Assembly: GCF_001570585.1 (NCBI RefSeq)
Contig: NZ_BBXF01000006.1
Location: 62,001-126,000 of the forward strand
Length of the DNA: 64,000 nucleotides
Origin: Herbidospora daliensis
GTDB taxonomy: Bacteria; Actinomycetota; Actinomycetes; Streptosporangiales; Streptosporangiaceae
Direction of reading: 5' to 3'
Each line of letters starts with the position of its first letter. The stretch's first letter is position 1. Position numbers and translations under genes: made by a program. Below, piece after piece: positions 22,941-31,500 of this stretch. The notes beneath the pieces are model-generated. The model had not been told where the DNA came from and ran no database searches. It was given only the letters and a program-made list of their open reading frames with translations.

Positions 22941-24824
22941 ATGGTGAGTGAAGGCGACGTGCTCTGGGTCCCATCGGCCGAGGTCATCCGGGATGCCCGG
23001 ATCACCCGTTTCCAGGAGGCGGTCGGCCGGCCCGGCGCCTACGACGGGTTGTGGTCGTGGTCGGTGGAGGAGCCCGCCGCTTTCTGGACCGCCGTCTGGG
23101 ATTACTTCGGCGTCGTCGGCGACCGTTCCGACGGTCCGGTCATAACCGGAGAAATGCCGCAAGCATCGTGGTTTCCCGGCAGCCGTCTTAATTACGCGGA
23201 AAACGCGCTAAAAGGGCCTGCTGACCGTATTGCAGTGATATTTCGGGATGAATCGGGCGGGCGGCGGACGTACACGCTCGGAGAGTTGCGCGACGAAGTC
23301 GCGAAAGCGCGGGCCGGACTGGTGGCGCACGGCGTCGGAACGGGCGACCGGGTGGCCGGATATCTGCCGAACATCCCCGAAGCGCTGATCGCCTTCCTCG
23401 CCACCGCGTCGCTGGGGGCGGTCTGGTCGTCGTGCTCGCCCGACTTCGGGGCCCCGGCCATCATCGACCGGTTCACCCAGATCGAGCCGAAGGTCCTGTT
23501 CGCCGTCGACGGCTACACCTACAACGGAAAGTACTTCGACCGGACCGGCGTGGTCGCCGACATCGCCGCGCGGCTGCCCTCGCTCAACGCGACCGTGCGG
23601 GTCTCCGAGTGGGACTCCTTCACCCGCCCCGGCGACCTCGCCTTCGACCGGGTGCCCTTCGACCACCCGCTCTGGGTGCTCTACTCCTCCGGCACGACCG
23701 GGCTGCCCAAGCCCATCGTGCACGGCCACGGCGGCATCGTGGTCGAGCACCTGAAGTCGCTCACCTTCCACCAGGACCTCGGCGAGGGCGACCGGTTCTT
23801 CTGGTACACCACCACCGGCTGGATGATGTGGAACTACCTCATCGGCGGCCTGCTGGTCGGCGCGACGGTCGTCCTGTACGACGGCTCGGCCGCCCACCCC
23901 TCGACCGGCGCCCTGTGGGACCTCGTCGCCGACGAGGGCGTGACCTACTTCGGCACCGGCGCCCCCTACATCGTCGCCTCGATGAAGGCCGGCCTGAAGC
24001 CGGCGGGCCTGGCGGCGCTGAAGGGCGTCGGCTCGACCGGCTCGCCGCTGCCGCCCGAGGGCTTCGCCTGGGTCTCCGCCGACGTGTCGGCCGACGTCCA
24101 GCTCGGCTCGTTCTCCGGCGGCACCGACGTCTGCACCGGCTTCGTCGGCGCGGTGCGGACCCTGCCGGTGCGCGCGGGCGTGATCCCGTGCCGCTCGCTC
24201 GGCGCGCGCGTCGAGGCGTTCGACCCGGCGGGCGAGCCCGTCACCGGCGAGGTCGGCGAGCTCGTCATCACCGCGCCGATGCCCTCGATGCCGGTCATGT
24301 TCTGGAACGACCCCGACGGCCGCCGCTACCGGGAGTCGTACTTCGAGGAGTATCCCGGCGTCTGGCGGCACGGCGACTGGATCAAGATCCTGCCCGACGG
24401 CGGCAGCGTCATCTACGGGCGCTCCGACTCGACCCTCAACCGGGGCGGGGTGCGGATGGGCACCAGCGAGTTCTACCGCGTGGTCGAGCGCTTCGAGGCC
24501 GTGGCCGACAGCCTCGTCATCGACACCGGCCGCCTCGGCCAGGAGGGCAGACTGCTCCTGTACGTCGCCCTCGCCGACGGCCACGACCTCGACGAGACCC
24601 TCGTCAAGGGGCTGAAGACCGCCCTGCGCACCGAGTTGTCGCCGCGCCACGTGCCCGACGAGATCACGGCCGTGCCGGGGATCCCGCGCACCCTGTCGGG
24701 CAAGAAGCTCGAAGTGCCGGTGCGCAAAATTTTGCAGGGCACGCCGGTCGAGCGGGCCGCCAACCCCGACGCCATGGCCAACCCCGAGGTGCTGGCGTTC
24801 TTCACACCCCTTGCGGATGCCTGA
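22941..24824 (+). CDS. Acetoacetate-CoA ligase
   Basis: ANL-family enzyme of 627 residues. The N-terminal WFPGSRLNYAEN is characteristic of acetoacetyl-CoA synthetases. The AMP-binding motif is LYSSGTTGLPKP, GSFSGGTDVCTGF is present, and the catalytic C-terminal Lys lies in TLSGKKLEVPVRK. It activates acetoacetate with ATP and CoA for ketone-body or branched-chain catabolism. ATG 22941 is preferred over an upstream in-frame ATG. Codons from about 23187 to 23250 are unusually AT-rich. Confidence 0.92.
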   Translation: MVSEGDVLWVPSAEVIRDARITRFQEAVGRPGAYDGLWSWSVEEPAAFWTAVWDYFGVVGDRSDGPVITGEMPQASWFPGSRLNYAENALKGPADRIAVIFRDESGGRRTYTLGELRDEVAKARAGLVAHGVGTGDRVAGYLPNIPEALIAFLATASLGAVWSSCSPDFGAPAIIDRFTQIEPKVLFAVDGYTYNGKYFDRTGVVADIAARLPSLNATVRVSEWDSFTRPGDLAFDRVPFDHPLWVLYSSGTTGLPKPIVHGHGGIVVEHLKSLTFHQDLGEGDRFFWYTTTGWMMWNYLIGGLLVGATVVLYDGSAAHPSTGALWDLVADEGVTYFGTGAPYIVASMKAGLKPAGLAALKGVGSTGSPLPPEGFAWVSADVSADVQLGSFSGGTDVCTGFVGAVRTLPVRAGVIPCRSLGARVEAFDPAGEPVTGEVGELVITAPMPSMPVMFWNDPDGRRYRESYFEEYPGVWRHGDWIKILPDGGSVIYGRSDSTLNRGGVRMGTSEFYRVVERFEAVADSLVIDTGRLGQEGRLLLYVALADGHDLDETLVKGLKTALRTELSPRHVPDEITAVPGIPRTLSGKKLEVPVRKILQGTPVERAANPDAMANPEVLAFFTPLADA

Positions 24825-26166
24825 AGAACCCGGTCGGGTCGTAGGTCTTCTTCACGGCGGCCAGCCGGGCGGCGTTCGCCCCGTAATACTGATCCTTATA
24901 GTCCTTTAGGGCTATATCGGGATAGTTAACGTAGGCATGCCGTCCGAGCCTCGGCGTCATCGAATCGCGGGCCGAGCGGACCCAGGCACTTGCGCCGTCG
25001 AAGTGGGCGTAGTACTGGAGGCTGAACAGCGCCTTCCGGTGCGGGAACGCCGTCGCGCCGGGGGCCACGCGCCCGACCGCCCCGCCCAGGGCGTCGATCA
25101 GGACCGTGTGCCGCCCCGGCCGGCCCACCTGGGCGATGAGCGCCCTGATGGTCGCGTCGCTCATCTCGCTGTACGCGAAGTGGGAGCTGGCGCTGAACCG
25201 GTCGCGGGGCCCCGTGTGGCAGGCCTCCAGGGTCGAGCAGCCGGCCATGAAGTACATCGCCTGGAGGTAACTCAGCGATTTGACCGTCCGTGTCGACGGC
25301 GGGAAACCCGCCAGGAGGGCCTCACAACGCGATCTGGAGCCCAAATAGAGCCCGGTGACGGAGACGGACCGCCCCGGGTCCTGGGAGAGGTGCAGATTCG
25401 ACCACAGCGCGTCGGGCGCCCCGGGCGCCCATCGTTGCCACTTCTTCACCACGGCGAACGCCTGCGACCACGGCCAGCGCATCGTGAACACGGTGACGTC
25501 GCGCACGGGGTGGGTCTGGTAGGTGAACGAGGTGGCGATGCCGAAGTTGCCGCCGCCGCCTCCCCGCAGCGCCCAGAACAGTTCGGGATGGCTGTCGGCC
25601 GTGGCCGTGATCAGCTTCCCGCCGGCCGTCACGAGGGAGACGGCCTTGAGCACGTCGATCGTCAGGCCGTAGCGGCGGGCGACGACCCCGATCCCGCCGC
25701 CCAGCGTGAGACCGGCCACCCCGACCGTCGGGCACGAGCCCGCGGGGATGGAGACGCCGCTCTTGCCGAGCGTCGTGTAGACGTCGATGAGCTTGGCCCC
25801 CGACCCGACCGTGGCCAGGCCGCCGGCCAGCCGCACGGTCTTGAGCTGGGAGACGTCCACGACCAGGCCCGATCCGGTCGACCAGCCGGCGTACGAGTGG
25901 CCGCCCGACCTCGGATGCACGACCAGGCCGTTGCGGCGGGCGAACCCCACGCAGGCCGCCACGTCGGCGGCGGTGGCGCAGTAGGCGACGGCCCGGGGGG
26001 TCGCGGTGTCGAAGGCGACGTTGAAGACGCGTTTGGCGGTGGCGTAGGAGGCGTCGCCGGGCCGTACGAGACGGCCCTTCAACGCCCTGTCCAGCGCCGC
26101 CCAGTCGGGCGCCGCGCCCGCGAACGGCGCGAGCGCCGCCGCGGACAGAAATTCACGACGATCCAC
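24802..26166 (-). CDS. FAD-linked oxidase, BBE type, with Tat-like signal
   Basis: Berberine-bridge-like oxidoreductase of 454 residues. The N-terminus DRREFLSAAALAPFAGA looks like a short Tat signal. The FAD domain has H90 in RSGGHSYAGWS and C145 in PAGSCPTVGVAGLTLGGGIG, the pair that gives bicovalent FAD. The BBE C-terminus is present (NYPDIALKDY, YDPTGFFRHPQGV). Substrate, likely a carbohydrate or alcohol, is unknown. It lies 62 bases downstream of the NuoF-like gene on the same strand. Its 3' end overlaps the ligase gene by 23 bases. Confidence 0.88.
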   Translation of the reverse strand: MDRREFLSAAALAPFAGAAPDWAALDRALKGRLVRPGDASYATAKRVFNVAFDTATPRAVAYCATAADVAACVGFARRNGLVVHPRSGGHSYAGWSTGSGLVVDVSQLKTVRLAGGLATVGSGAKLIDVYTTLGKSGVSIPAGSCPTVGVAGLTLGGGIGVVARRYGLTIDVLKAVSLVTAGGKLITATADSHPELFWALRGGGGGNFGIATSFTYQTHPVRDVTVFTMRWPWSQAFAVVKKWQRWAPGAPDALWSNLHLSQDPGRSVSVTGLYLGSRSRCEALLAGFPPSTRTVKSLSYLQAMYFMAGCSTLEACHTGPRDRFSASSHFAYSEMSDATIRALIAQVGRPGRHTVLIDALGGAVGRVAPGATAFPHRKALFSLQYYAHFDGASAWVRSARDSMTPRLGRHAYVNYPDIALKDYKDQYYGANAARLAAVKKTYDPTGFFRHPQGV

Positions 26167-26228: not shown

Positions 26229-27689
26229 TTACTTCCGGGAGTCGACTCGGAGAGCCAGCGCCGGGCACATCTCGACCGCCCGCTGCGCCTCGCTCTTGGC
26301 CCACGCCGGAACCGGCGAGTCCATGAAGACCGGGAAGCCGTGGTGGTCGAGTTTCACCAGGTCGGGCATGAGGTGGGCGCACAGGCCGTGGCCCTGGCAG
26401 CGGGTCCAGTCGACCACCAGCCGCACGTCGCTGGCCTCGGTGATCGGCATCGGCAGGGTGTTCTTCACACCCCGGCCGCACGAGCCGTTGATGATGTGCT
26501 CGTCGACGTCCTCGGCGAACGCCTCCAGGGCCGAGAGCACGAAGCGGGTGGTCCCGTCGGGGTGGAAGCAGGCGCCCCGGCCCTTGACCGCCGTGGCGGC
26601 CGATTTCACCAGGTCGTGGGCCTGCGGGTCGCCCATGGTGAGCTCCGACAGGGCCCGCGCGAGCGCCGGCAGGCCGATGCGGCACGGGCCGCACTGCCCC
26701 GACGACTGCTGGGCCAGGTAGGCGGCGACCCGGACCGTCTCCCCGAGGGGACACGTGTCCGGGCCCAGCGGCACGATGATGCCCGCGCCGAGCTCACCGC
26801 CCGCCTGCTGCATGCCCCGGCGCGACACGATCGCGCCGTAGGCGTCGGCGGCGCTGAGCCATTTGCCGTGGTAGCCGCCGATCAGCACGCCGTCGCCGAC
26901 GTCCGCCTCGCACATGTCGAGCACCTGCGCCAGCGGCACCCCCGGCGTGACCTCCACGACCGAGGGCGACTTCACCGACCCGCTCACGCTGAGCAGGGTC
27001 GTGCCGGGCTCCTGCACGGTGCCGACGGAGCCGTACTCCTCCGGGCCCAGCTCGGCGAGCAGCGCGAGCTGGGCGAACGTCTCGGTGTTCGACAACAGGG
27101 TGGGCAGTCCGCGCACCCCGGCGTCGCTGGTGCGGACCTTCCGTCCGGACGGCTGGCCCAGTTCGCCGTTCACCGCCCGGACGAGGGACCCGCCCTCGCC
27201 CGAGATGAACCGCTCCTGGATGCCGGCCACCCGGACGTACCCGATGAGCCCGCGCTCGGCCACGGCCGCACGCATCGAGCCCTCCGCCAGCTCACCCGCG
27301 GGGGTGGCGATGACCACCTCTTTGGCGTCCAGCGCACTGGCCGCCAGCAGCGCGCCCTCGAGCACGAGGTGCGGTTTGCGGGTGAGCAGCATCTTGTCCT
27401 TCATGCTGGCCGGCTCGCCTTCGGCGGCGTTGACCAGCACGACGGTGTCGGAGGTGCGCGCGTTGGCCTGGACGGCCCTGAGCTTGCGCGCGAACGGGAA
27501 GGCCGCCCCACCGCGTCCCCGCAGGTCGACCTCTTCAGCCAGCGAGATCAGTGAGTCGACGGATTGGCCGTCGAGTTTGCCGTGGATCTCGTAGTGAGTG
27601 TCGAGGTCCATCCGGCGGTGCTCGTCGAGTCCGGCGGTGAGCCGGGCCGGACCGAGCCTGCGGATCTTGGAGACGCGGTAGGGAATCAT
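26229..27689 (-). CDS. NuoF-like flavoprotein fused to a ferredoxin
   Basis: Protein of 486 residues. A NuoF-type FMN/NADH domain (GRGGAAFPFARKL near 58-70, NAAEGEPAS) and an SLBB-like segment are followed by a NuoF Fe-S region of SSGQCGPCR and GACFHPDG. The first cluster cysteine is replaced by S330, leaving C333, C336 and C374. A C-terminal ferredoxin has C431-x5-C437 and C475-P, the three-cysteine pattern of 3Fe-4S ferredoxins. It probably moves electrons from NAD(P)H to the membrane protein encoded three bases upstream. Confidence 0.85.
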   Translation of the reverse strand: MIPYRVSKIRRLGPARLTAGLDEHRRMDLDTHYEIHGKLDGQSVDSLISLAEEVDLRGRGGAAFPFARKLRAVQANARTSDTVVLVNAAEGEPASMKDKMLLTRKPHLVLEGALLAASALDAKEVVIATPAGELAEGSMRAAVAERGLIGYVRVAGIQERFISGEGGSLVRAVNGELGQPSGRKVRTSDAGVRGLPTLLSNTETFAQLALLAELGPEEYGSVGTVQEPGTTLLSVSGSVKSPSVVEVTPGVPLAQVLDMCEADVGDGVLIGGYHGKWLSAADAYGAIVSRRGMQQAGGELGAGIIVPLGPDTCPLGETVRVAAYLAQQSSGQCGPCRIGLPALARALSELTMGDPQAHDLVKSAATAVKGRGACFHPDGTTRFVLSALEAFAEDVDEHIINGSCGRGVKNTLPMPITEASDVRLVVDWTRCQGHGLCAHLMPDLVKLDHHGFPVFMDSPVPAWAKSEAQRAVEMCPALALRVDSRK

Positions 27690-27692
27690 GTC

Positions 27693-28475
27693 TTAGACAA
27701 CCCTCCTTAGCTTCTGGGGCTGGGCGGCCTGCTCGCGCTCGGCCAGCCTGTTCGTCTTGCGCTTGGCGTCCTCCTGCGGCATCGGCAGCTCCTCCATCTC
27801 GTCCTGCATGGTCGTCTTCGGTCGTATCGAGACGATCGCGCGGATCATGAGGGCGGTGCCGACGGCGACGATGCACAGGATGTAGCTCCACGCCACCCAG
27901 GGCGCGGGCGTCCGTCCGGCCGCCAGGCCGTGCAGGATCGAGACGGGCCAGGCCAGATAGGCCAGGTCGTGCAGGCCACGCCAGATCCAGGGGTGTACGG
28001 CCATGGCGAACCGGCCACGCATCACCCCGGTGGCGACGATCACGATGAACAGGTCCGACGCGACGGCGCCGGCCCCCACCGCCAGACTGGTGGTGGGGAT
28101 GACCGACCCGTACGACGGGACCAGCCCGGCCGCGATCTTCATGCCGATGTGGACGACCAGGAAGCCGACCCCGATCAGGGCGGCGCCCCGGTGCACGAGT
28201 TGTGCCCGGACGCGCCACCTGATCGGCAGGATCATGCGCTCGGACGTGAGCAGTCCGAGACCCACGGTCGCCGTGAGCGCCACGAGCGAGAAGACGCCCG
28301 CGTAGAACGTGAGGAACTCCTGCGCCATCAGCAGGACCTGAGTGCTCAACCCCAGACGGGCGCCGAGCAGTGATCCGGCCATGATGGTGAACGCGAGAGA
28401 GCCCAGGACGATCCGAACGCCTCGCTTCTGGAGGTCGAAGCGTTCGGATCGTCGATGAGCCCGCCTTTTTGACAC
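27693..28475 (-). CDS. Ferric-reductase-like bis-heme membrane protein
   Basis: Integral membrane protein of 260 residues with about six hydrophobic segments. H95/H109 and H169/H182 lie on two helices at the 13-14 residue spacing of the two heme ligands in ferric-reductase/NOX-type proteins. A charged cytoplasmic tail follows, with no flavin domain of its own. It could take electrons from the NuoF-ferredoxin fusion across the membrane to the exported proteins of this operon. GTG start with a GGAGG ribosome site. Confidence 0.8.
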   Translation of the reverse strand: MSKRRAHRRSERFDLQKRGVRIVLGSLAFTIMAGSLLGARLGLSTQVLLMAQEFLTFYAGVFSLVALTATVGLGLLTSERMILPIRWRVRAQLVHRGAALIGVGFLVVHIGMKIAAGLVPSYGSVIPTTSLAVGAGAVASDLFIVIVATGVMRGRFAMAVHPWIWRGLHDLAYLAWPVSILHGLAAGRTPAPWVAWSYILCIVAVGTALMIRAIVSIRPKTTMQDEMEELPMPQEDAKRKTNRLAEREQAAQPQKLRRVV

Positions 28476-28523
28476 TGATTCCTCCGGTTAGGGGGGATCT
28501 GCCGAGGGCTCTGAGGCCGCCGA

Positions 28524-30023
28524 TCAGCAGCGGCGATTACGGTTGATGCACTGCACCATGAAGTTCATGAGGTTGTTGGGCATGACGTTGTGGAAGTCGG
28601 CGTGGTCGGTGATCGGGCTGTGCTTCTGCTCGGGGAACGCGTCCACGGCGAAGCTGGCGCCCTGCGGAACCGCGTAGGCCAGGGTCATGCGCAGCTGGGG
28701 GACGGCCTGGGTGCCCTGGGGGCAGCGGCCGCTCTGGTCGGGGAACACGATGTGCGTCCGGTGGTTGGCGCTGTCGGTGTTCTGACCGTCCCAGCAGCTC
28801 GGGAAGTCCAGGATGCGCATCACGAGGCTGCCTCTCGGACAGACCGGATACTTGTCGGAAGCCCGGTTCTGGAAACCGGAGCAGGTCCACTGCGCCCGTG
28901 CGTTGGCCGGACCGTTGGTGGCCGCCTTGGCGTCACCGGTGATCACACGCAGGAAACGGGGCATCGCGACGACCCGGCTGAACCGGTTGCCGCGGAACTG
29001 GAGCTGGACCGCACGGGGGGTCAGGATCTGGCCGACGTTGCCGTCGGCGAAGCCGCCGATCTCCGAGCCGTCCTGGCCGGGCCGCGGGGGCTGGCCGGTC
29101 TGGCTGGGCTGGGGCTGCTGGCCGCCGTTGTTGCCGCCGTTGTTGTTCCCGCCGTTGTTCCCGTTGTTGTTGCCGTTGTTGCCCCGGCCGCCGTTGTTGT
29201 TGCCGCGATTGCCGAAGCGGCTCTGGTTCTCGGGCTGGGGCTGCTGCCTGCTGAAGCTCTGCGCCTGCGCGGTGCCGTTGCCGGCGTTCGCGCCGGACTG
29301 CTGGCTCTGGTCGGCCTGGCCGGTGTTCCCCGCCTGGTCATTGACGGACTGGTCGCTCTGCTGCGCAGCCTGGTCATTGACGGCTTGATCGTTGGGTGCG
29401 GCCTGGTCGCCCTGCTGCTGCTGCTGTTGCTGTTGCTGCTGCTGAGGCTGGGCGGAGGGGTCCTGCTGCTGCTGGTTCGGGTCCTGCTGCTGGTTGGGAT
29501 CCTGCTGTTGCTGGTTCGGGTCCTGCTGTTGCTGGTTGGGGTCCTGCTGCTGTTGCTGCTGACGGTTGTTCTGGTTGTTGTTCTGGCCCTGCAGCCTCAG
29601 GTCCGGCCGGAGGCGGAGGATGGGCCAGAAGTACGCGGACCTGTCGCCGTTCCGGCAGGTCGTGCCACCGGCGGCGAGCGACTGGTCGGTTGAGAACCCG
29701 CTGGTGGTGACGTTGCCCACGTAGTCGTGGACGTGGTGCGCGCCGTTCGTCACACCCGGCGCGACGATGTGGTTGTCGGAGTTGCGGTGCCCTCTTTCGT
29801 TGCGGCCACACTGCGAGGTGAACGATCCGCCACCTGCGACGACACCGTTCGCACGGCCGACGCGGCGGATGTCGACGAAGTCGCTCAGGGCCGGGCCGAG
29901 TGCGTCGCACTCGGCGCCGCCGATGCGTGGGTCGCAGGCCGCGAAGGCCGGCGTCGGGAAGCTCGGCAGGATCAGTGATCCGGCCAGCAGAGCTCCCGCC
30001 ATGGCGAGGGCGCGTTTACGCAT
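28524..30023 (-). CDS. Exported DUF1996 protein with a large Q/N-rich insert
   Basis: Secreted protein of 499 residues. A signal peptide (about 1-29, ending PAFA) and a DUF1996 N-half with NSDNHIVAPGVTNGAHHVHDYVGN precede a low-complexity stretch of about 175 residues (145-321). The rest of DUF1996 (WTCSGFQNR, FPSCWDG, HRTHIVFP, DHADFHNVMPN) follows. The insert has DPNQQQQ heptads, an eleven-Gln run and N/G repeats. His- and Cys-rich motifs suggest metal or redox chemistry. Function unknown. Confidence 0.8.
   Translation of the reverse strand: MRKRALAMAGALLAGSLILPSFPTPAFAACDPRIGGAECDALGPALSDFVDIRRVGRANGVVAGGGSFTSQCGRNERGHRNSDNHIVAPGVTNGAHHVHDYVGNVTTSGFSTDQSLAAGGTTCRNGDRSAYFWPILRLRPDLRLQGQNNNQNNRQQQQQQDPNQQQQDPNQQQQDPNQQQDPNQQQQDPSAQPQQQQQQQQQQQGDQAAPNDQAVNDQAAQQSDQSVNDQAGNTGQADQSQQSGANAGNGTAQAQSFSRQQPQPENQSRFGNRGNNNGGRGNNGNNNGNNGGNNNGGNNGGQQPQPSQTGQPPRPGQDGSEIGGFADGNVGQILTPRAVQLQFRGNRFSRVVAMPRFLRVITGDAKAATNGPANARAQWTCSGFQNRASDKYPVCPRGSLVMRILDFPSCWDGQNTDSANHRTHIVFPDQSGRCPQGTQAVPQLRMTLAYAVPQGASFAVDAFPEQKHSPITDHADFHNVMPNNLMNFMVQCINRNRRC
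29061..29591 (-). repeat. Low-complexity Q/N/G-coding tract
   Basis: CAG/CAA and AAC-rich tract coding the Q/N/G insert of the DUF1996 protein. The 29456-29543 part contains four near-identical DPNQQQ(Q) units. Length variation by slippage is likely. Confidence 0.85.
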
Positions 30024-30042
30024 GTTCTTCTTTTCCTCCTGG

Positions 30043-30633
30043 TTAGACCGGCGGGACCGGGAGTGCGGAGTAGTCCACCAGGCCGGTCTCCTCGAGCACA
30101 CGCATGTGCTTCATGACGACCACGTTGGCCTCCGCGGCGAAGGCGCGGATCCTCTCGTTCCGCGTCCCTGCGCGGATCGCGGCGACCGTGGAGAAGACCT
30201 TGCCGTGGGCGGCTCGCAGCCGGTCGGCGAAGATCTGGTCGAACTGGGCGCCGGTCGCGTTCGACATCTCACCCAGCCAGCGCTGCTGGTCGGGGTTGGG
30301 ATCGTTGGGGAGCGGCACACCGAGCGCGGAGGCTTCGGCGCGCACCTGCTCGTCGAGCTTCGCGTGGTCGACCATGAGGTGGTTGCCCGCGATCTTGACC
30401 TTCTCGTTGGTCGAGCGCTCCTGAGCCCAGCGGCCGGCGGGGATCTCCCAGAGCCCCGCCCACCGCACCTTCACGAGGAAGTCCCTGTCGGCGGGGCTCA
30501 ACGGGCCCCACCGGGTCGAAGTGAAACCCTGCTGCGCCGTCGCCTGTTCCTGGGGCACGACGACGATGACGGCGACGGCCGCCGCGAACAGGAAAACCGC
30601 GAAGACCACGAGTTCCCCGAACCGGAACCGCAT
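30043..30633 (-). CDS. DUF4142 exported/anchored protein
   Basis: Protein of 196 residues with an N-terminal hydrophobic segment (about 8-26) as signal or anchor, then a DUF4142 ferritin-like four-helix domain (LSPADRDFLVKVRWAGLWEIPAGRWA, MVDHAKLDEQV, MKHMRVLEE). Family function is unsettled. It is the first gene of a minus-strand run with the DUF1996, heme-membrane and NuoF-ferredoxin genes (19-, 48- and 3-base gaps). GAGGAGG ribosome site. Confidence 0.82.
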   Translation of the reverse strand: MRFRFGELVVFAVFLFAAAVAVIVVVPQEQATAQQGFTSTRWGPLSPADRDFLVKVRWAGLWEIPAGRWAQERSTNEKVKIAGNHLMVDHAKLDEQVRAEASALGVPLPNDPNPDQQRWLGEMSNATGAQFDQIFADRLRAAHGKVFSTVAAIRAGTRNERIRAFAAEANVVVMKHMRVLEETGLVDYSALPVPPV

Positions 30634-30657
30634 GGCGCCTCCTCTCTTTCGGGGGGA

Positions 30658-30713
30658 GGTACGCGGGCTTGTGGCGGATGGTTCAGGAATAGTTAGAAAT
30701 GACGAGAGTTGTC
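30658..30713. promoter_or_regulatory. Back-to-back candidate ECF promoters
   Basis: On the plus strand GGAATA (30686-30691), a 16-base spacer and GTTGTC (30708-30713) lead to the sigma gene. On the minus strand TGAACC (30685-30680), 16 bases and CGTACC (30663-30658) lead to the DUF4142 operon. Both loosely resemble ECF GGAAC/CGTC elements, and the -35 boxes abut. The match is weak, so this is a proposal. Confidence 0.35.
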
Positions 30714-30748
30714 AGAGTTGTGTACAGGCCACAAACCCTGGTGCAAAT

Positions 30749-31318
30749 ATGTGGCCTGTGCGCCGACAACTCGACAGCCGGTTCGAGCGTCTGGACCCCG
30801 ACGTAGACCCTGATTGGGATGATCGCCTCATCAGGGAGCTCTATAACGAGTTCGGTGGTCCGTTGCTCCGTCAGGTCAGGCAGACGACCGGCAACGACCT
30901 TCAGTGGGCGGAGGACGTCGTTCAGGAGACGTTGCTTCGTGCCTGGCGTAACGCGGCGAAACTGACGTGGGAGAGGGGACTGCTCTGGGCATGGCTCCTC
31001 ACCGTCTCTCGCCGCATCGTGATCGACGGCCGCCGCCGCCGCGGTGTCCGTCCTCGGGAGGTGGAACCACCCGAAGCGGACAGCATCGCGGTGCCCGACG
31101 GTGCCGACAAGACCCTGGCGGCGATCGTCGTCGCTGATGCCTTGCGCGGTCTAAGCGCCGATCACCGAGAAGTTATCGAACAGACATACTTACGGGACCG
31201 TACGGTTAACGAGGCCGCGGTGATTCTGGGGATTCCTCCGGGTACTGTGAAATCGAGGCTGTACTACGCTCTGCGTTCCCTTCGCGGGGTCCTGAAGGAG
31301 AGGGGAGTGGCCAGCTGA
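30749..31318 (+). CDS. ECF-family RNA polymerase sigma factor
   Basis: Sigma factor of 189 residues. Region 2 reads LLRQVRQTTGNDLQWAEDVVQETLLRAWRNA and WLLTVSRRIVIDGRRRR. Region 4 (about 130-185) is LRGLSADHREVIEQTYLRDRTVNEAAVILGIPPGTVKSRLYYALRSLR. It directs transcription of a small regulon, probably including itself and the divergent electron-transfer operon. The ATG lacks a clear ribosome site. Its stop overlaps the anti-sigma start in TGATG. Confidence 0.9.
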   Translation: MWPVRRQLDSRFERLDPDVDPDWDDRLIRELYNEFGGPLLRQVRQTTGNDLQWAEDVVQETLLRAWRNAAKLTWERGLLWAWLLTVSRRIVIDGRRRRGVRPREVEPPEADSIAVPDGADKTLAAIVVADALRGLSADHREVIEQTYLRDRTVNEAAVILGIPPGTVKSRLYYALRSLRGVLKERGVAS

Positions 31319-31500
31319 TGTCTGAGTCGTCACACTTCGAAGTGGCGGCCTACGCCCTCGGGGTGCTTGACGACGCCGATGTCGAGGCCTTCGAACGCCA
31401 CCTCGACGCGTGTGAGCGGTGTCGGCAGGAGCTCAAGGTGATGGCCGAGCTCCCCGGCCTGCTCGATGACGTGAAGTCCTCATCGGAGCGAACCAACTAA
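31318..31500 (+). CDS. Minimal zinc-finger anti-sigma factor candidate
   Basis: Protein of only 60 residues, essentially one zf-HC2/ZAS motif: H28-x3-C32-x2-C35 in FERHLDACERCRQEL. Typical anti-sigmas continue into a TM helix and an outer domain; this one stops after the helix LPGLLDDVKSS. It is coupled to the sigma gene by a one-base overlap, so it should bind that sigma in the cytoplasm and may respond to redox or zinc. Confidence 0.8.
   Translation: MSESSHFEVAAYALGVLDDADVEAFERHLDACERCRQELKVMAELPGLLDDVKSSSERTN

Follow-up and report, generated by a model that had tools for sequence, protein, structure and literature searches.

A putative NADH-driven electron-export module encoded with DUF4142 and DUF1996 proteins beside a SigL/RslA-type sigma factor pair in Herbidospora daliensis

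In Actinobacteria, six-helix, two-heme membrane proteins termed 'MsrQ-like' have been described in flavinylation gene clusters, 31 of them with a NuoF-like protein (Meheust et al. 2021, eLife; PMC8238504). Such systems, which are common in Actinobacteria, pair a ferric-reductase-like protein with a NuoF-like one and have been proposed to export electrons from NADH. We analyzed a related gene set in Herbidospora daliensis, in a window of 64,000 nt (contig NZ_BBXF01000006.1, positions 62,001-126,000; all gene coordinates are window positions). It encodes a six-helix membrane protein, here called HEM, and a NuoF-like/ferredoxin fusion, here called NUOF, together with a DUF4142 and a DUF1996 protein and, divergently, an extracytoplasmic function (ECF) sigma factor and a small anti-sigma factor (Table 1). 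The source genome (label G000) has 8.5 Mb, and the six best named relatives of its NuoF-like protein are all from Herbidospora, with 97-100% identity. We consider the core of this set likely to be an NADH-driven electron-export module.

The locus shares the di-heme membrane protein and its NuoF-like neighbor with the MsrQ-like systems. Unlike them, it encodes an exported DUF4142 protein, a DUF1996 protein, and a flavin adenine dinucleotide (FAD) oxidase exported by twin-arginine translocation (Tat), has its own ECF sigma factor, and carries a ferredoxin fused to NuoF. In other orders of the phylum, relatives of the HEM-NUOF pair have the gene for an ApbE flavin transferase as their immediate neighbor (L147, L148, and loci like them), which makes the relay a variant of the MsrQ-like kind, although PF04205 detects no FMN_bind domain in the vicinity. 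The core relay is therefore not new, since flavinylated clusters have previously been described with ferric-reductase-like and NuoF-like proteins side by side; what is new in this system are the exported partners and the sigma control. A sequence-only reading of the window, which knew no named system of this composition, was accordingly right about the partners and the regulation, but not about the relay. A literature search on DUF1996 and DUF4142 returned no title or abstract describing this cluster. FMN_bind was also considered as a hidden acceptor and rejected, as it was not found in the Herbidospora genome nor near HEM in the other genomes searched. The single ApbE copy of the genome lies on another contig, outside the cluster.

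The HEM-NUOF pair

HEM has 260 amino acids, and its AlphaFold model (predicted local distance difference test, pLDDT, 79.5) shows six long helices, with the chain ending shortly past helix 6 and containing no FAD/NAD(P)H dehydrogenase domain of the FNR type. Four histidines, H95, H109, H169, and H182, occur without exception in the 79 relatives, which confirms the earlier claim of two ferric-reductase-type heme ligand pairs in a six-transmembrane protein. Their HX13H and HX12H spacing (intervals of 14 and 13 residues) is exactly that of human NOX2, whose heme-ligand histidines lie in transmembrane helices 3 and 5 at 101/115 and 209/222 (PMC3591440). The closest structural match of the model was the bacterial NADPH oxidase SpNOX (Z 12.8, root-mean-square deviation 3.2, 148 residues), and STEAP, NOX5, and also cytochromes b6 and b561 followed with similar Z; nearly all of the top matches are heme b proteins, and the Foldseek top match was STEAP4. 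With helical bundles, Z values under about 13 do not settle the matter, so the case depends on the ligand spacing. By the positive-inside rule, H95/H169 would be on the cytoplasmic side and H109/H182 on the outer side of the membrane. The protein is predicted to be heme loaded.

HEM resembles the ferric reductase superfamily and NOX2, NOX5, and SpNOX in ligand spacing and may share their helical core, and differs from them in having no fused FAD/NAD(P) domain, no PF01794 match, and no histidine specific to the production of reactive oxygen species. The window protein gave zero matches above cut-off in Pfam and NCBIfam, including PF01794 (ferric reductase), which weakly matched 15 of 34 HEM relatives (best E 1.9e-4). 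A profile search against PDB sequences gave no match either, and viral copies of HEM were looked for without any being found. In NOX proteins, the production of reactive oxygen species is marked by His-119 of NOX2, four residues past the second histidine of transmembrane helix 3 (PMC3591440). Of 79 HEM relatives, 64 have Lys and 13 have Met at this position, which leans away from HEM as a superoxide producer.

NUOF matched Complex1_51K (1.4e-29), NADH_4Fe-4S (4.8e-16), and, at its C terminus, Fer4_15 (2.4e-13). The ferredoxin part has a CxxHxxC...CP motif whose His is present in 80/80 relatives, the pattern expected of a 3Fe-4S-type ferredoxin, so the predicted fusion of a NuoF-like flavoprotein with such a ferredoxin holds, the ferredoxin type at the motif level. 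Like complex I NuoF and HydB-type diaphorases, NUOF has the flavin mononucleotide (FMN) fold and the NADH_4Fe-4S domain. Unlike them, it reached 177.9 bits against the NuoF equivalog TIGR01959 of NCBIfam, far below the cut-off of 558.65, has lost the first of the four N3-cluster cysteines, carries the C-terminal ferredoxin, and has no NuoE or NuoG partner. The lost cysteine is replaced by Ala (60/80) or Ser (20/80); it is also lost in HEM-linked NuoF-like relatives across the phylum wherever the motif was readable, and retained in the three other NuoF-type proteins of the same genome. The loss is a marker of the HEM-linked NuoF branch. Two other conserved cysteines, C314 and C405 (stop-to-stop numbering), were considered as new ligands and rejected, as the HydB alignment has cysteines there or nearby, leaving the loss of the first N3 cysteine as the only distinctive change. 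The predicted electron donor of NUOF would be NADH, and the natural reading of the pair would be a path from NADH through flavin, Fe-S center, and ferredoxin to two hemes.

Gene linkage and the promoter upstream of DUF4142

To see how far the set is conserved, 80 loci from named genomes (1.33 Mb) were compared. All loci of Herbidospora, Acrocarpospora, and Planotetraspora, and nearly all of Microbispora and Nonomuraea, keep the four genes together in the order DUF4142-DUF1996-HEM-NUOF, divergent from the sigma and anti-sigma genes. Actinomadura has the order HEM-NUOF-DUF4142-DUF1996, other arrangements near the sigma gene are seen at L154-L157, L159, and L160, and in two Streptomyces loci (L085 and L200) the set is complete, with DUF1996 and HEM 1.8-2.7 kb apart and, in L085, a different ECF sigma gene after DUF1996. 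Across Streptosporangiaceae, Actinomadura, and a few Streptomyces, the four genes thus remain neighbors in several different orders, so their linkage is not local chance, and the co-occurrence in other genomes on which the earlier proposal depended was found across genera. Among 201 genomes of the family, in which HEM was located by a single-protein search, 31 of the 44 module-type DUF1996 proteins listed were within 5 kb of HEM, versus 0 of the 100 canonical ones listed; contig breaks explain some of the remaining module-type cases. HEM was present in 47/47 genomes whose best DUF1996 was of the module type, versus 42/113 without DUF1996 (Fisher 6e-16, phylogeny ignored). The shuffled gene orders are a better argument for linkage than these genome counts. 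The HEM-NUOF pair alone was seen in Streptomycetaceae (L141-L143, L151, and L152), beside leuS in Streptomyces.

In the Herbidospora locus, the four genes form a compact operon on the minus strand; the intergenic gaps from DUF4142 to NUOF are 19, 48, and 3 bp, and no terminator-like sites were found between the genes. A motif, TGAACC-N15-17-CGTA[CT][CT], was present within 300 bp upstream of DUF4142 in 67/73 loci, always 35-145 bp before the start, among a total of 75 matches on both strands of all 80 loci. It was found before none of the HEM, NUOF, or DUF1996 starts in the 80 loci, before the sigma gene in only 1/36 loci, and not in the Streptomyces L085 and L200 loci. An alignment of the divergent intergenic regions of 33 loci showed TGAACC and CGCGTACCT to be conserved, with a variable spacer. 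This footprint makes it very likely that DUF4142-DUF1996 is under ECF control. The motif, which we take to match the SigL consensus, is presumably bound by the sigma factor encoded at the locus. Simple autoregulation of the sigma gene through a TGAACC promoter finds no support, since nearly all loci lack the motif there. Another block of the intergenic region, GTCATTTCTRACTAT, is almost invariant in Streptosporangiaceae loci and could serve as an operator or as the promoter of the sigma gene. In Actinomadura the motif is kept before DUF4142 though the sigma gene lies elsewhere, and SigL-like factors are encoded in trans in the genomes tested.

Three further matches to the motif were found elsewhere in the Herbidospora genome. 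Two lie just upstream of start-like codons, G000:C2:567565 (L169), followed by a possible lipoprotein start, and G000:C5:1059511 (L170), and may mark further sigma targets. In Nonomuraea loci (L027:4960-5010 and others), the DUF4142 start codon is so near the -10 element that the transcript is probably leaderless; Herbidospora has a ribosome-binding site instead.

The sigma factor and anti-sigma factor are encoded divergently, as had been proposed. The former has regions 2 and 4 without region 3, and its closest solved relative is SigL of Mycobacterium tuberculosis (2.2e-29); that of the latter is RslA (3.8e-5), with a zf-HC2 match (2.6e-7) and an HxxxCxxC motif. The pair thus resembles M. tuberculosis SigL-RslA with its zinc HxxxCxxC anti-sigma factor. 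It is unlike SigL-RslA in its neighbor genes and in the Herbidospora anti-sigma factor, which has only 60 amino acids and no membrane part. This soluble mini version is found in Herbidospora and its allies; the long protein of Actinomadura alba (L039) and L076 has in addition a hydrophobic segment and another domain. Oxidation causes RslA to release Zn2+ and to form a disulfide (PMC2877774), and growth in low iron is poor in an M. tuberculosis sigL mutant (PMC10449499).

The exported partners

The DUF4142 protein matched PF13628 with 86.5 bits (cut-off 27, E 2.6e-24) and has a single N-terminal hydrophobic helix. Among its histidines, H90 never varies, and H143 and H176 almost never do. A sequence search for a solved relative gave no credible match; DUF4142 has been described as ferritin-like and found in a lanthanophore cluster (PMC11317620). 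In Microbispora oryzae (L018:6598-8001), DUF4142 is followed by HEM, with DUF1996 cleanly lost from between them, and the DUF4142 protein carries H143D and H176Q. This paired loss, one case only, suggests that the two proteins act together. Most Streptomyces loci read have DUF4142 alone.

The DUF1996 protein matched PF09362 with 73.8 bits (cut-off 27, E 2.8e-20). Its open reading frame opens at 30101, and AGGAGG followed by ATG at 30023 indicates a protein of 499 amino acids with a signal peptide. The earlier description of it as an exported, Q/N-rich protein therefore stands for the export; the Q/N-rich tract is lineage-specific and not part of the core, being extensive in Herbidospora but largely lacking in Nonomuraea and Actinomadura, with orthologs of 360-390 amino acids lacking most of it. 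H148, H150, H295, H298, H348, D291, D350, and eight cysteines (L027 numbering) are identical in 12 module DUF1996 proteins and the genome's four canonical paralogs, as are further residues, so that the domain looks like a disulfide-rich secreted one with a metal or catalytic site. Its AlphaFold model is weak (pLDDT 62); Foldseek found nothing with E below 0.001 and VIA-align nothing at Z of at least 2, and no relative with a solved structure was found. The four canonical paralogs (L161-L164) are encoded on other contigs, none near HEM. Three of the four have an N-terminal F5/8 type C carbohydrate-binding-like domain, which is absent from the module subfamily. By sequence, the module type is a separate subfamily from the canonical paralogs. 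Fungal DUF1996 is found together with CBM1, CBM6, or WSC (PMC7679414), and fungal DUF1996 deletion mutants are sensitive to oxidants and several metal ions (PMC4738358).

All six genes of the sequence-only reading were confirmed at their positions, but a conserved flavoprotein gene had been left outside its boundaries. This gene encodes a BBE-like protein found downstream of NUOF in 27 loci, most of those of Streptosporangiaceae; nearly all 27 proteins have a twin-arginine signal of the DRRxFL type together with the two residues that bicovalent FAD attachment would require. Loci of Planotetraspora and Actinomadura do not have the gene, which we treated as an accessory to the module.

Table 1. 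Features of the Herbidospora daliensis locus (window positions)
Feature	Position	Strand	Evidence or remark
Tat-exported BBE-like bicovalent-FAD oxidoreductase, accessory	24802-26166	-	62 bp downstream of NUOF
NUOF, NuoF-like NADH dehydrogenase fused to CxxHxxC...CP ferredoxin	26229-27689	-	FMN fold; N3-like cluster with 3/4 Cys; weak SLBB
HEM, six-helix putative di-heme b protein, ferric-reductase/NOX-like	27693-28475	-	invariant H95, H109, H169, H182
Secreted DUF1996 protein, module-specific subfamily	28524-30023	-	signal peptide; invariant His/Asp; 8 Cys; lineage-specific Q/N-rich tract
DUF4142 protein, exported or membrane-anchored	30043-30633	-	PF13628; N-terminal hydrophobic helix
Conserved ECF-type promoter TGAACC-N16-CGTACC, upstream of DUF4142	30658-30685	-	conservation across loci
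Conserved 15-bp block GTCATTTCTRACTAT between the divergent genes; candidate sigma-gene promoter or operator	30689-30703	not assigned	alignment
ECF sigma factor, closest solved relative M. tuberculosis SigL	30749-31318	+	
60-aa soluble zinc-type anti-sigma factor (HxxxCxxC), closest solved relative RslA	31318-31500	+	zf-HC2

A proposed electron path and its rivals

We propose that the locus encodes transmembrane electron export under a SigL/RslA-type sigma factor, used for metal reduction or handling at the envelope, a reading whose chances we judge to be evenly balanced. Cytosolic NUOF would take a hydride from NADH onto FMN and pass single electrons through the N3-like Fe-S center to its C-terminal 3Fe-4S ferredoxin, from which they would reach the inner heme of HEM (H95-H169), then the outer heme (H109-H182), and exit at the outer face. 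There, they would serve the anchored, ferritin-like DUF4142 protein and the secreted DUF1996 protein, which are encoded with HEM in this lineage. Most likely, the system would reduce or otherwise handle a metal, iron or copper, at the envelope, DUF4142 and DUF1996 being its metal-binding partners. The zinc anti-sigma factor would release the sigma factor upon oxidation or a change in metal, turning on the DUF4142 promoter. The outward direction of electron flow is likewise predicted, and a metal is the best single guess for the acceptor, weakly supported. The metal lead comes from the lanthanophore cluster with DUF4142, the metal and oxidant sensitivity of fungal DUF1996 mutants, the low-iron defect of the sigL mutant, and the Zn2+ release by RslA. 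In the path put forward earlier, from NADH through Fe-S and two membrane hemes to exported proteins, the relay is supported by the linkage, the conserved promoter, and the heme-ligand geometry. Its endpoint is less secure, as neither DUF4142 nor DUF1996 contains a redox cofactor motif that we could find.

Besides this lack of cofactor motifs, several points weigh against the proposal. HEM-NUOF pairs without DUF4142 and DUF1996, beside leuS in Streptomyces and at L158, indicate that the relay does not need these two proteins. In Actinomadura, the promoter precedes DUF4142-DUF1996 and not the HEM-NUOF pair, so a single transcript for the four genes is not the rule. The flanks that were read showed no gene for a metal transporter and no siderophore gene, the carbohydrate-binding modules on other DUF1996 proteins suggest a polysaccharide rather than a metal role, and the genome counts are not independent of phylogeny. 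The support as a whole comes from sequence analysis.

The main rival to the metal reading takes up those carbohydrate-binding modules. DUF1996 would be a secreted redox enzyme, like a metal-dependent oxygenase, that receives the electrons and acts on cell-wall or environmental polysaccharide, with DUF4142 as a membrane adaptor and the Tat FAD oxidase as a co-oxidase. The F5/8-type-C domain of the canonical paralogs, the fungal companions CBM1, CBM6, and WSC, the five histidines and D291 and D350 shared by module and canonical proteins, and the BBE-like oxidase with both covalent-FAD residues adjoining most Streptosporangiaceae loci are consistent with it. However, the canonical proteins are never near HEM among those listed, so the DUF1996 fold as such does not depend on electrons supplied in this way; the proteins of the module lack the carbohydrate-binding domain, their weak model matches no known enzyme fold, and the loci of Planotetraspora and Actinomadura do without the oxidase. 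We regard this alternative as unlikely. A regulon for envelope stress without a physical electron path, in which the sigma factor drives DUF4142-DUF1996 while HEM-NUOF serves another acceptor, such as quinone or an unlinked one, is in our view quite unlikely. It would explain why the Actinomadura promoter lies before DUF4142 only, why other lineages have HEM-NUOF by itself or beside ApbE, and why DUF4142 stands alone in most Streptomyces loci read, but not why several gene orders keep all four genes together or why the module-type DUF1996 is never without HEM in a genome (47/47).

A NOX-like role in releasing superoxide or H2O2 outside the cell, for signaling or defense, with DUF4142 and DUF1996 shielding the wall or using the peroxide, would fit the NOX2 heme spacing, the SpNOX match, and the redox-type zinc motif of the anti-sigma factor. 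The Lys or Met at the His-119 position and the missing FNR-type dehydrogenase domain make it improbable. Within the electron-export proposal, a bolder version pictures a trans-envelope redox machine in which a NOX-like HEM, with NuoF-ferredoxin replacing FNR, sends electrons via the ferritin-like DUF4142 to a secreted DUF1996 metalloprotein under a dedicated redox-sensing sigma factor; we hold this version to be doubtful. If true, it would give DUF1996, a family shared with fungi, its first biochemical role. Electron export in this gene set, which many actinomycetes carry, would mean that a ferric-reductase-like membrane relay has been swapped among exported partners, flavinylated systems in some lineages and DUF4142/DUF1996 here. 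Through the linkage, the widespread DUF1996 and DUF4142 families, whose functions are unknown, gain a connection to a plausible electron source and a testable promoter.

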